Assembly: GCF_900188325.1 (NCBI RefSeq)
Contig: NZ_FZPD01000002.1
Location: forward strand, 558,001-622,000
From: Ekhidna lutea
GTDB taxonomy: Bacteria > Bacteroidota > Bacteroidia > Cytophagales > Cyclobacteriaceae
Length of the DNA: 64,000 bases
Direction: 5' to 3'
Under the pieces are notes generated by a model. It saw only the letters and a list, made by a program, of their open reading frames with translations. It made no database searches and had not been told where the DNA came from. Of this stretch, positions 7,429 through 11,221 are shown piece by piece. The position numbers and the translations under genes are program-made. Each line of letters begins with the position of its first letter. Position 1 is the stretch's first letter.

Positions 7429-8790
7429 TCACCTCACATAAACCGTCTTCACATTAACAAACTCCTTGATGCCGTGGTGTGAAAGCTCACGACCAAAACC
7501 GCTTTCATTGATCCCTCCAAATGGCAAGCGAGGATCTGATTGCACCATGGCGTTTACGAAGCAGGAGCCTGCTTCCAGTTTGGTTGCGGCCAGCACTTCG
7601 GCTCGTTTTACATCTTTGGAAAAGATCGCTCCTCCAAGTCCATAGTAGGTATCATTAGCTACCCTCATGGCCTCCACTTCATCTTTTACAGTGATGACAG
7701 AAGCAACCGGTCCAAACAATTCTTCTTCATACGCAGGCATTCCTTTCTTTACATCGGTAAGAATGGTTGGTGGGTAATAATATCCGGGTCCGACAGGCAC
7801 TTCGCCACCCAGCAGACACTTAGCCCCTGCTTTAATACTCCGATCTACCTGATCGGCCAATTGCTCCCGGTACTTCTTCCCTACCAAAGGACCCAAATCG
7901 ACCCCCGGATTTGTAGGATCACCATATTTGTAGGATTTCATCTCGGCAATCAATCGTTTTTCAAATTCATCTTTAATCGCAACAGGAACAATGAAACGTT
8001 TGGCACTGATGCAACTTTGTCCGTTGTTTTTTAAGCGACTGGCTACTGTGGTTTTCACAGCCAGGTCCAAATCGGCATCTTCTAAAATGATGTAAGGATC
8101 ACTTCCTCCCAGCTCCAGCACACATTTCTTGAGAACAGCTCCAGCCTGTTTGGCCACCGCTTTTCCTGCCCGTGTGCTTCCGGTCAATGTTATTGCTTTT
8201 ACATGTTTATGAGTGATTACCTCGGAAGCTTGATCATTGGTGATAAACAGGTTGCTGAAAAGATGTTTTGGAAAACCAGCTTCTTCAAAAACAGCAACAA
8301 TCGCCTCCGCACATCCGGGTACATTGGGTGCATGTTTCAGCAAGGCAGCATTTCCCGCCATCAGGCTTGGTGCTGCAAACCGAAACACCTGCCAGAAGGG
8401 GTAATTCCATGGCATGATTGCGAATACAATGCCGAGTGGACGATGACTTACGTAGCTCTTGGAGGCATCCGTTTCTATCACCTCGTCTGCTAAGAAGGCT
8501 TCAGCATTATCTGCATAATAATCACAAACCCAGGCACATTTCTCCACTTCTGCTTCACTATTCTTCAAGGGTTTCCCCATTTCTTCGGTCATGATCTTTG
8601 CAAAGTCCGCTTTTTTGGAACGCAAAACAGCGGCCGCTTTTTTCATCAACTCACTGCGATAGGAAAAAGTGGTATCCTTCCAGGAGGAGTACGCTTCATG
8701 CGTAGCATCAATGATCTTCGCCATTTGACCATCATTGTGATCCGCATAAAATTTCAACAATTCTTCGGTCGCCGGATTGATTGCCTGCAT
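7429..8790 (-). CDS. NAD(P)-dependent aldehyde dehydrogenase, succinate-semialdehyde dehydrogenase type
   Basis: The 453-residue protein has the aldehyde dehydrogenase signatures MPWNYPFWQ, TGSTRAGKAVA, LELGGSDPYI (catalytic Glu) and NNGQSCISAKR (catalytic Cys), and EELFGPV near the end. Length and motif spelling fit the short GabD/Sad-like succinate-semialdehyde dehydrogenases of Bacteroidota. The reaction is oxidation of an aldehyde, probably succinate semialdehyde, to the acid in the cytoplasm. It is divergent from the permuted flavoprotein gene, with 83 bp between starts. Substrate specificity is an inference. Confidence 0.85.
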   Translation of the reverse strand: MQAINPATEELLKFYADHNDGQMAKIIDATHEAYSSWKDTTFSYRSELMKKAAAVLRSKKADFAKIMTEEMGKPLKNSEAEVEKCAWVCDYYADNAEAFLADEVIETDASKSYVSHRPLGIVFAIMPWNYPFWQVFRFAAPSLMAGNAALLKHAPNVPGCAEAIVAVFEEAGFPKHLFSNLFITNDQASEVITHKHVKAITLTGSTRAGKAVAKQAGAVLKKCVLELGGSDPYIILEDADLDLAVKTTVASRLKNNGQSCISAKRFIVPVAIKDEFEKRLIAEMKSYKYGDPTNPGVDLGPLVGKKYREQLADQVDRSIKAGAKCLLGGEVPVGPGYYYPPTILTDVKKGMPAYEEELFGPVASVITVKDEVEAMRVANDTYYGLGGAIFSKDVKRAEVLAATKLEAGSCFVNAMVQSDPRLPFGGINESGFGRELSHHGIKEFVNVKTVYVR

Positions 8791-8873: not shown

Positions 8874-10010
8874 ATGATCCATACACAACAAAATGATAGC
8901 CGAAGAAATTTCATAAAAAAGCTGGGTGCCGCAGGTTTTTTTATGTCTACCATGAGCTTGCCCTCGTATGCACTCGAGCAAGTATTAAATCAACCCATAC
9001 AGTATTCTCCGCTGAAGCCTGTGAATGTATCACCGGAGCGCATCATCCGACAGGTCGTTGGTTTGAGGCCATACCGACCTTCCGGTTTCAACCTAAGTGT
9101 ACAAAAGCTGGACGAGAAAGCAATCATTCATAATTACGGTCATGGAGGCGGTGGCATCTCGCTTTCCTGGGGAACAGCCAGCCTGGCCATTGAGAAAATT
9201 GAAGCCTCGCAATCAACTCCAATCGCAGTGTTGGGTGCAGGTGTGATCGGACTTTCCTCCGCTATTCTCTTACTCAAGCAAGGAAGGCCGGTGACTATTT
9301 ACACTGATCGCCTCCCACCCAATACCACTTCCAATGTGGCGGCCGCCTACTGGGCACCTGTTTCTGTGTTTGAATCAGGTATGATTGCCACAGGGTTCAT
9401 GGATGAATTTAATCGAGCTTCCATAATCTCTCAGCGAATGTTTCAGGATCTTGTAGGTTCAAGATATGGCGTTTGGTGGATCAAAAGCTTTTTTCTGGGA
9501 GCGAGCTTTGATTTCCCGGGTGGGAAAAACCTTTACCCGGACTACAAACAGCACAATTCAACCTCCTCTCCTTTCACTGGTTTTGAAATTAACGATGAAG
9601 TATACTCATTGATGATTGAACCGCCTATTTACATGAAGGCCCTTCTGGATGATTTTTACCAGCTGGGCGGAAAATTGATAGTTCGTAAATTCAATGACCT
9701 GAATGAACTCAACCAATTGAAGGAACCATACGTTATGAACTGCACCGGGTTAGGATCGCATGACTTATTTAAGGACAAAAGCCTCATTCCTGTACAAGGA
9801 CAACTGGCAGTACTCCTTCCTCAGGAGGAAATCAACTATGGATATGTGATTCCTACCTTCGATGATCTGTTGTACATGTTTCCTCGCAAAGATGGAATCA
9901 TCCTTGGCGGAACTTCCGAAAAAGGTAACTGGTCATTAAATCCTAATGATCAGGAGCTTACGAGAATCATGGAGGGTCACAAACGCATCGCTGCTGGTCT
10001 TAAACCCTAG
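8874..10010 (+). CDS. Circularly permuted D-amino-acid-oxidase-like FAD oxidoreductase with Tat signal
   Basis: The 378-residue product begins with an exact twin-arginine motif (SRRNFIK, residues 9-15) and a hydrophobic stretch, so it should be exported folded. Next come VGLRPYRPSG (62-71) and IIHNYGHGGGG (84-94), which in D-amino-acid/D-aspartate oxidases form the C-terminal block. Only then follows the FAD-binding motif VLGAGVIGLSSA (119-130) and AAAYWAP (156-162). The protein ends with LGGTSEKGNWSLNP and EGHKRIAAGLKP, which is where the VGLRP block should begin. The domain order is thus a circular permutation of the family. The likely reaction is FAD-dependent oxidation of an amine or amino acid. 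The substrate is unknown. Confidence 0.8.
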   Translation: MIHTQQNDSRRNFIKKLGAAGFFMSTMSLPSYALEQVLNQPIQYSPLKPVNVSPERIIRQVVGLRPYRPSGFNLSVQKLDEKAIIHNYGHGGGGISLSWGTASLAIEKIEASQSTPIAVLGAGVIGLSSAILLLKQGRPVTIYTDRLPPNTTSNVAAAYWAPVSVFESGMIATGFMDEFNRASIISQRMFQDLVGSRYGVWWIKSFFLGASFDFPGGKNLYPDYKQHNSTSSPFTGFEINDEVYSLMIEPPIYMKALLDDFYQLGGKLIVRKFNDLNELNQLKEPYVMNCTGLGSHDLFKDKSLIPVQGQLAVLLPQEEINYGYVIPTFDDLLYMFPRKDGIILGGTSEKGNWSLNPNDQELTRIMEGHKRIAAGLKP

Positions 10011-10031: not shown

Positions 10032-10062
10032 TTTGTTAATCGATTAGATATTTGTAACTTTG
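10032..10062 (+). promoter_or_regulatory. Bacteroidota-type promoter of hpd
   Basis: TTTG (10032-10035 as ATTTG) is followed after 19 bp by TAACTTTG (10055-10062), an exact match to the TTTG-N19-TAnnTTTG consensus. The predicted transcription start is near 10069, about 25 bp upstream of the hpd ATG. It shows that hpd need not be co-transcribed with the flavoprotein gene. Confidence 0.75.
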
Positions 10063-10093: not shown

Positions 10094-11221
10094 ATGGAAA
10101 CTACAGCAACAGCAGAAAAAACACAGGAAGCGCAGGACTTCATGCCAATCAATGGCACGGACTATTTGGAATTGTATGTGAGCAATGCCAAGCAGGCCGC
10201 TCATTTCTATCGTTCTGCTTTTGGTTTTAAAGCACTGGCATATGCAGGGCTGGAAACAGGCATCAAAGACCGGGAATCGTATGTGGTTGTCCAGGACAAA
10301 ATCCGACTGGTGCTAACCTCCCCTCTCCGAAGTGGCACGGTCATCGGCGAGCACATCGATAAGCACGGTGATGGCGTGAAAGTAACCGCCCTTTGGGTGG
10401 ATGATGCAACGCATGCATATAATGAAGCTGTAAAGCGAGGAGCTAAATCCTTCATGGAGCCCAACACCATTGAAGATAAACACGGTAAAGTGGTACAATC
10501 CGGTATCCATACCTATGGTGAAGTGGTGCATATCTTTATTGAACGAAATGATTACGATGGGATTTTCCTTCCGGGATACCGCGAATGGAACACCGAATAC
10601 AACCCTGAACCTGTTGGCTTAAAGTATGTGGATCACATGGTGGGTAATGTGGAGCTCGGCGACATGGATAAATATGTGAAGTTCTACGAAGAAGTGATGG
10701 GCTTCAAGCAGATCATGTCATTCGATGATAAAGATATTTCTACCAAGTACACCGCGCTCATGAGTAAGGTGATGAGCAATGGCAATGGGAGAATCAAATT
10801 CCCTATTAACGAACCAGCTGCCGGACTGAAAAAATCGCAAGTAGATGAATACCTGGAGTTTTACGAAGGTGCAGGTGTTCAGCACATTGCAGTCGCCACC
10901 GATAACATCATCCAGACCGTAACTGATCTTAAAAACAGAGGAATTGAATTCCTGAAAGTGCCAGACACGTACTACGATGCTTTAGCAGAACGAGTAGGTG
11001 AAATAGATGAAGACATTGAAGCACTGAGGCCTTTGGGTATCCTGGTAGACCGTGACGATGAAGGCTATCTGCTGCAGATTTTCACCAAGACGGTGCAGGC
11101 TCGACCGACCATGTTCTTTGAGATCATCCAGCGAAAAGGGGCTACCTCTTTCGGAAAAGGTAACTTCAAAGCTTTGTTTGAGGCACTGGAAAAAGAACAG
11201 GAACTGCGAGGCACACTATAA
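10094..11221 (+). CDS. hpd: 4-hydroxyphenylpyruvate dioxygenase
   Basis: The 375-residue protein has two vicinal-oxygen-chelate domains. The predicted Fe(II) ligands are visible: His181 in YVDHMVGN, His264 in VQHIAVATD and Glu343 in FFEIIQRKG. The terminal GKGNFKALFEALEKEQ motif is typical. The enzyme converts 4-hydroxyphenylpyruvate to homogentisate in tyrosine breakdown, in the cytoplasm. It has a strong promoter at 10032-10062 and a terminator at 11251-11277, so it is probably monocistronic. No other tyrosine-degradation gene is adjacent. Confidence 0.96.
   Translation: METTATAEKTQEAQDFMPINGTDYLELYVSNAKQAAHFYRSAFGFKALAYAGLETGIKDRESYVVVQDKIRLVLTSPLRSGTVIGEHIDKHGDGVKVTALWVDDATHAYNEAVKRGAKSFMEPNTIEDKHGKVVQSGIHTYGEVVHIFIERNDYDGIFLPGYREWNTEYNPEPVGLKYVDHMVGNVELGDMDKYVKFYEEVMGFKQIMSFDDKDISTKYTALMSKVMSNGNGRIKFPINEPAAGLKKSQVDEYLEFYEGAGVQHIAVATDNIIQTVTDLKNRGIEFLKVPDTYYDALAERVGEIDEDIEALRPLGILVDRDDEGYLLQIFTKTVQARPTMFFEIIQRKGATSFGKGNFKALFEALEKEQELRGTL

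Follow-up and report, generated by a model that had tools for sequence, protein, structure and literature searches.

A circularly permuted D-amino-acid-oxidase-like flavoprotein of Ekhidna lutea with a Tat-type signal and relatives in several bacterial phyla

D-Amino-acid oxidase (DAAO) and D-aspartate oxidase (DASPO) form a flavin adenine dinucleotide (FAD)-binding family (PDB 6rkf, 1an9, and 7ct4; PF01266) in which the GxGxxG motif is N-terminal and a GLRP...HNYGHGG block is C-terminal. We analyzed a gene of Ekhidna lutea located in a stretch of 64,000 nucleotides, here called the window (NZ_FZPD01000002.1, positions 558,001 to 622,000). Its product shares with the DAAO/DASPO family the fold of the larger part, the GxGxxG motif, the arginine at the position of pig R283, and the HNYGHGG loop. 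Unlike that family, it is circularly permuted, it has a twin-arginine translocation (Tat)-type signal, and the Y224 position is not kept. With the two segments in swapped order, the window protein is not a canonical DAAO member by chain order. The Proteus-type L-amino-acid deaminases (5hxw and 5fjm) share the DAO-type fold (VIA-align Z of approximately 16) and are reported to be directed for export by Tat (PMC5651824), a likeness to the predicted export of the window protein; they differ in aligning in the canonical order and, reportedly, in having a membrane-binding insertion. Glycine oxidase ThiO (TIGR02352) and D-amino-acid dehydrogenase DadA (PRK00711) belong to the same superfamily but match partially, with scores far under the curated cut-offs (70.8 versus 250.8 bits and 26.6 versus 383 bits, respectively), and of the 13 models that NCBIfam lists for the window protein, every one scores under its own cut-off. 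The circularly permuted FMN-bind1 proteins are likewise a permuted extracytosolic flavoprotein group, recognized from AlphaFold models, but PMC11334425 describes an FMN-binding domain with covalently attached flavin rather than the DAAO fold. The original prediction for this locus knew of no described family with the order seen here, and no description of a permuted DAAO was found in searches of the open-access literature. The main text of PMC5169069, which deals with the transfer of D-amino-acid enzymes, makes no mention of permutation. The window protein represents a real and widespread permuted branch of a well-known enzyme family, undescribed as far as the open-access literature shows. With a probability of roughly 0.8, it is an exported, circularly permuted FAD-dependent amino-acid oxidase (or dehydrogenase) of the DAAO fold, a reading in which we infer the docking of the moved segment, the export, the substrate, and the acceptor.

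Re-reading of the translation placed SRRNFIK at residues 9 to 15, VGLRP at 62 to 66, HNYGHGG at 86 to 92, and GAGVIG at 121 to 126, with the chain ending at 378 after AAGLKP, in agreement with the original prediction (Table 1). In phmmer searches against PDB sequences, known enzymes aligned in two exchanged pieces. Residues 12 to 263 of human DASPO (6rkf) matched query residues 114 to 365 (i-E 3.4e-22) and residues 280 to 331 matched query residues 58 to 106 (i-E 8.9e-8); for pig DAAO, residues 3 to 271 matched 117 to 377 and residues 272 to 326 matched 54 to 106. The chain thus stops at about pig 271/272, where a canonical DAAO enters the block, which agrees with the claim that the protein ends where VGLRP should follow. 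The whole protein belongs to the PF01266 (DAO) superfamily (E 2.3e-26; 93.6 bits versus a curated cut-off of 27.9). The two parts were also aligned separately to the profile, a check that had been proposed with the prediction. The block alone (window positions 9042 to 9221) matched PF01266 positions 303 to 351 of 353 (E 4.7e-5), with 23.5 bits under a cut-off set for the whole protein, and the remainder matched the earlier part (best stretch 146 to 292, E 4.7e-20). Moreover, a block profile built from 50 permuted proteins matched 17 distinct PDB sequences, all of them DAAO or DASPO and all near the C-terminus (best E 3e-14). No second copy of the block lies downstream; there is one block in each of 132 permuted and 23 canonical open reading frames (ORFs), and no two-copy duplication intermediate was found among the 132 permuted ORFs. 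The window's own genome has one gene of this kind. The clean circular permutation that had been proposed is therefore borne out by the sequence, and also by the homologues, the tree, and the model described below.

Table 1. Coordinates of the permuted gene, its parts, and its neighbours in the window
Feature	Position	Strand	Remark
Whole gene, circularly permuted DAAO-like flavoprotein	8874..10010	+	378 aa plus stop
Tat-type signal region, residues 1-33	8874..8972	+	SRRNFIK at 8898-8918, hydrophobic stretch, possible SYA cleavage
Relocated block, residues 54-110	9033..9203	+	Corresponds to C-terminal strands and last helix of canonical DAAO
VGLRP and HNYGHGG	9057-9071 and 9129-9149	+	Within relocated block
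New junction, residues 108-116	9195..9221	+	Old C-terminal helix joined to old N-terminal strand; DSSP H91-107, E117-120
Rest of DAAO fold, residues 117-378	9222..10007	+	Starts with FAD-binding strand-helix, GAGVIG (9234-9251)
Aldehyde dehydrogenase (PF00171), upstream neighbour	7429..8790	-	Backbone gene, not thought part of the system
4-Hydroxyphenylpyruvate-dioxygenase-like (glyoxalase superfamily), downstream neighbour	10094..11221	+	Backbone gene

Homologues with the same order were sought, as the prediction had advised, and were found in large numbers. Contigs of species-level (named) genomes were scanned with an alignment (A1) of 17 permuted proteins, each of which matches PF01266 at E <= 0.01. 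At least 596 stretches matched the pattern and 577 encoded relatives; among the best 80 of these 577, which were kept, the block preceded GxGxxG in every locus. The kept loci come from Acidobacteria, Alpha- and Gammaproteobacteria, Gemmatimonadetes, Dadabacteria, and Eremiobacterota. Since the scan started from a permuted profile and retained its best 80 loci, it is no measure of the frequency of the canonical form. The window protein alone as the query returned no relative from the named genomes, and the relatives emerged with the alignment. Segment order was further recorded in four whole-genome samples; where a locus was fetched, the order was read in its sequence, and elsewhere it was deduced from the ranges of the matches. 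Among 390 genomes of the window's order, 43 had unbroken permuted genes (45 genes, with two genomes having two each), a further one had a broken permuted copy, 14 had canonical genes, and 3 gave weak matches. The order of Sphingopyxis sp. HIX (99 genomes) gave 10 permuted, no clear canonical, and 5 weak cases; the acidobacterial sample (149 genomes) gave 10 permuted, 6 canonical, and 2 fragmentary or weak cases; and the gemmatimonad sample (101 genomes) gave 20 permuted, 2 canonical, and 2 unclear cases. A sample of 296 genomes from the window's phylum gave matches in 48; in a partial tally of these, only G557 besides G000 and G046 looks permuted by match range, and many others show the canonical two-piece order. 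From these match ranges, the permuted form within Bacteroidota is mainly a Cytophagales feature in these samples. Permuted genes also occur on plasmid records of Rhizobium, Bradyrhizobium, Niveispirillum, Kozakia, and the actinomycete Nonomuraea, and the three plasmid records with a listed gene annotate it as "FAD-dependent oxidoreductase." As for carriage by phages, there was no match in the phage collection and no PHROG at E <= 0.001. Altogether, permuted DAAO-like proteins are a large family in several bacterial phyla and not a one-off.

Some individual loci stood apart within these samples. One permuted copy (L135, G117:C116:15815-16651) is interrupted by five in-frame stops, and one acidobacterial genome (G849) has four permuted copies across three contigs. 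Within the window's order, two genomes that belong to a single family, one of them 1.2 Mb in size, have very divergent permuted copies (L133 and L134), in which CYRP replaces GLRP and no Tat motif was matched.

The residues expected around the flavin and the substrate carboxylate were then compared with those of pig DAAO, in which we take R283 to be the substrate-carboxylate arginine and Y224 and Y228 to be active-site tyrosines. R65 (9066-9068) corresponds to pig R283, and arginine occupies this position in all 124 permuted and all 25 canonical rows. G92 corresponds to pig G313 and is kept in 123 of 124 permuted rows, and each HNYGHGG position is kept in 121 to 124 of the 124. The window protein also has a tyrosine, Y334 (9873-9875), at the position of pig Y228. 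As judged from these alignments, the flavin site and the carboxylate anchor are kept, but the side-chain pocket is not.

An AlphaFold2 model was built with an alignment of 64 permuted proteins. The whole-protein model had a pLDDT of 90.1 and a pTM of 0.85, with 96 to 98 for the block, and the block predicted alone had 71.4 and 0.41, which was too weak for a structure search and is as expected if the block needs the rest of the protein to fold. VIA-align superposed residues 112 to 375 on human DASPO residues 2 to 264 (Z 23.9, rmsd 2.2, 252 residues) and on residues 1 to 269 of mammalian DAAOs (Z 23.2 to 23.8), with CmiS2 and glycine oxidases next (Z of approximately 18). With Foldseek, the 50 matches listed reached a TM-score on the query of 0.60 at best. 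No permuted structure was found among the 50 matches listed from each of these two fold searches or among 19 PDB profile hits, which split in two or stop short. The modelled block consists of strands 57-67, 73-79, and 82-88 and helix 91-107, presumably the same element order as in the C-terminal segment of DAAO. Across the junction, the residue pairs with the highest mutual information (124 rows, Neff 83) were 95-336 (z 7.6), 70-303 (z 7.4), and 95-159 (z 5.8), in a ranking that was not controlled for relatedness and whose second pair has no pocket or flavin reading. Positions 95, 336, and 159 align to pig L316, I230, and L51, which we take to be neighbours of the pocket or the flavin; this covariation is only a hint that the block docks as in DAAO. 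The element order, the difference in confidence between the whole and the isolated block, and the covariation across the junction are thus indirect signs that the block would dock as it does in DAAO.

The new N-terminus of the window protein has a twin-arginine motif followed by a hydrophobic stretch (SRRNFIK...GAAGFFMSTM), in accordance with the Tat signal predicted ahead of the block, and TatC is encoded in the window's genome (224.9 bits). A Tat-like pattern was matched in 118 of 132 permuted ORFs, which are not independent and include several from one genus, versus none of 23 canonical ORFs. Broken down by source, the counts were 72 of 80 for named-genome ORFs, 37 of 40 for ORFs of the window-side searches, 7 of 7 for the Sphingopyxis side, and 2 of 5 for plasmids. 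The pattern missed L060, L064, L070, L076, L090, L095, and L109, in which RR, a hydrophobic stretch, and mostly a cysteine are visible by eye. The invariance of RR within A1 proves nothing, because its 17 members were picked among loci with an RRxF motif. A lipobox-like cysteine accompanies the Tat-like motif in 90 of the 132 permuted ORFs. Unlike most relatives, the window protein has no cysteine in residues 1 to 50 and would therefore be soluble in the periplasm rather than lipid anchored. The members from Rhizobium, Bradyrhizobium, and Nonomuraea are permuted with no Tat-type motif matched; the proposed arrangement of a permutation behind a Tat signal thus holds for the window protein and most relatives, but not for this rhizobial and actinomycete branch. 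For this reason, permutation and export signal look separable.

A quick tree was calculated from rows thinned by identity from 144 to 63, and a careful tree of rotated sequences was calculated with five plasmid rows added and with the long branches L133, L134, and L008_canon left out. In the careful tree, one branch separated 48 permuted from 17 canonical rows (100/99) and was present in 200 of 200 bootstrap trees. The quick tree, including the three long branches, still had one split (support 97), and a tree without the block had the identical split (SH-aLRT 99). Because permuted and canonical rows fall on two sides of one branch, one permutation suffices to explain these sequence data. The tree is unrooted and the direction of change depends on the root; from the presence of the canonical order in both eukaryotes and bacteria, we infer that it is ancestral. 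Seen from the canonical side, Rhizobium, Bradyrhizobium, and Nonomuraea branch first, and the other 45 permuted rows are united at only 88/82. The main Cytophagales clade joins Niveispirillum and Kozakia at 100/99. The window protein lies outside this clade and groups with proteins of Acidobacteriota and proteobacteria (92/96, under the star threshold); its identity is 32 to 37% to the 16 Cytophagales members of A1 and up to 49% to an acidobacterial protein. Nine other genomes of the window's genus had no match to the permuted gene. In the nearest of them, G005, the aldehyde dehydrogenase and dioxygenase genes are adjacent without it, with 137 bp between the chosen start codons. In the window's genome, the gene was probably gained by transfer, between two genes that adjoin in this relative. 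Base composition was dropped as a sign of transfer: the G+C content of the gene is 45.4% versus 40.1% for the window, but its neighbours are similar (46.5% and 46.3%). We hold in even balance the broader idea that a single old permutation founded a separate, mostly exported DAAO branch across phyla. By moving the N-terminus from the FAD strand to a loop open to a signal and lipid anchor, it could have made an envelope amino-acid oxidase possible, and the signal-less members would record the step before export.

In the proposed mechanism, the canonical C-terminal segment, comprising the substrate-arginine strand, the flavin-binding glycine loop, and the last helix, comes first in the chain. A linker of approximately nine residues connects it to the FAD-binding strand that is N-terminal in canonical enzymes, and the protein ends at the loop that formerly preceded the segment. 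Docking of the block in its usual place would give a DAAO-type active site with the new termini elsewhere on the fold, which, as the original prediction suggested, might alter substrate access. The Tat signal would direct the folded, FAD-loaded enzyme to the cell envelope or periplasm, where it would oxidize an amino acid, probably of the D-form, to an imino acid and pass the electrons to O2 or a respiratory carrier. The imine would be hydrolysed, in some relatives perhaps with the aid of a neighbouring Rid-type deaminase. A Rid-like gene adjoins 10 permuted Cytophagales loci, divergently in 8 and upstream on the same strand in 2. Of two such neighbours searched against Pfam, L002 passes PF01042 (9.1e-9) and a partial copy in L138 is under the cut-off (8.3e-4); the other assignments rest on similarity to the first one. 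Several of the Rid-like proteins begin with apparent signal sequences by eye. Imino acids that amino-acid oxidases or dehydrogenases release are the substrates that Rid proteins hydrolyse (PMC5979572), and for Rid2/Rid3 proteins the D-arginine dehydrogenase product serves as a substrate (PMC5619798). A Rid-like neighbour in Cytophagales thus fits an amino-acid oxidase, because Rid proteins act on the imino acids that such enzymes make.

Several observations weigh against this reading. The pig Y228 position is tyrosine in 85 of 124 permuted rows, with N, H, or S in 36 others, versus all 25 canonical rows. At the position of pig Y224, 94 of 124 permuted rows have a gap and the window protein has D330, although canonical rows mostly lack Y224 too (commonest letter G, 11 of 25). 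Since these pocket positions are not kept, specificity cannot be read off; the pocket appears to differ from that of mammalian DAAO, and the substrate may differ as well. In addition, the VIA-align superposition spans residues 112 to 375 only and does not directly include the block, and a poorly resolved tree of the block alone (66 columns) requires the order to have changed twice. There is no Rid gene beside the window gene; the four PF01042 genes of its genome are on contigs 7, 8, and 9, and the window is on contig 6. A search with one Cytophagales Rid query found none in the 80 kept named-genome loci, with flanks of up to 4 kb in which a remote Rid could escape. The enzyme likely works like a DAAO and may be one in the enzymological sense.

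Three alternatives were weighed against an exported, permuted amino-acid oxidase. The chance that the apparent permutation is an assembly or frame artefact at 9000 to 9250, a danger named with the original prediction, is negligible: an assembly error is excluded because independent homologues show the same order, including all 80 kept loci, and the order recurs with a near-constant block-to-GxGxxG spacing (33 residues from HNYG in 99 of 119 permuted rows) across independent genomes, metagenome-assembled genomes, isolates, and plasmids. A more serious alternative, which we regard as possible but with the odds against it, is a permuted and exported protein that is not a D-amino-acid oxidase, for example a dehydrogenase that passes electrons to a c-type cytochrome or quinone, or an enzyme that acts on some other amine or amino acid. 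This alternative overlaps the preferred reading, which leaves the acceptor open. The unkept Y224 and partly unkept Y228 positions would suit it. So would a cytochrome c gene that follows the permuted gene by a few bases on a Kozakia baliensis plasmid (L156, 3887-5547), which suggests an electron acceptor other than O2, and the Rhizobium plasmid gene that stands between a berberine-bridge-type FAD enzyme (by Pfam) and a thiamine pyrophosphate (TPP) enzyme, an order that annotation repeats in Bradyrhizobium. The Proteus deaminases, which share the fold and are reportedly exported by Tat (PMC5651824), also point this way. The retained R283 equivalent and HNYGHGG loop, and the fact that the closest solved relatives by both sequence and fold are DAAO and DASPO, speak for the DAAO-type enzyme instead. 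An exported flavoprotein without catalysis, in a binding or structural role, seems very unlikely. Although N, H, or S at the Y228 equivalent in part of the family would allow it, R65, Y334, G92, and the FAD motif are all present in the window protein, its ORF is unbroken, and its relatives in other phyla are 35 to 49% identical.

A well-studied enzyme that has been circularly permuted in nature offers a rare test of how far a fold tolerates rewiring; in this case the parent is DAAO, a textbook flavoenzyme, and one event suffices to explain the data. Because permuted branches with and without signals exist, it is possible to test whether permutation paved the way for export. Genes named only "FAD-dependent oxidoreductase" can be recognized as relatives of DAAO in permuted form, of which many are probably amino-acid oxidases of the envelope, with relevance to D-amino-acid turnover outside the cytoplasm, and the family offers permuted DAAO scaffolds for engineering. 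A further candidate for the permuted form is a "D-amino acid oxidase" (A0A060QKK3) that PMC12502724 lists among the proteins released by Asaia bogorensis. Asaia and Kozakia are members of one family.

Finally, the gene neighbourhoods were compared, and no universal neighbour of permuted genes was found. The 4-hydroxyphenylpyruvate-dioxygenase-like gene starts 83 bp downstream of the window gene, and its product would act on the keto acid that corresponds to D-Tyr. It was dropped as a functional partner because its adjacency to the aldehyde dehydrogenase gene exists without the permuted gene in G005 (dioxygenase 91% identical) and because neither gene stood beside a permuted gene in any locus examined save the window's own. 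The pattern TTTG-N-TAnnTTTG is a Bacteroidota-type promoter. A match upstream of the dioxygenase gene (10032-10062) was set aside, with 2.61 chance matches expected in the window. Four loci (L005, L007, L013, and L015) have a class-V-aminotransferase-like gene downstream within approximately 0.8 kb, and the L005 protein passes PF00266 and has a Tat-like start. In the Kozakia baliensis locus, hydrolase genes and a TonB-dependent receptor lie nearby. The Rhizobium and Bradyrhizobium plasmids, both typed as conjugative, have the permuted gene in a small-operon-like array (L152, 3929-4990, and L155, 3926-4978). In one genus, 13 loci among L021 to L038 have a threonine-aldolase-like (Beta_elim_lyase) gene downstream of the permuted gene.
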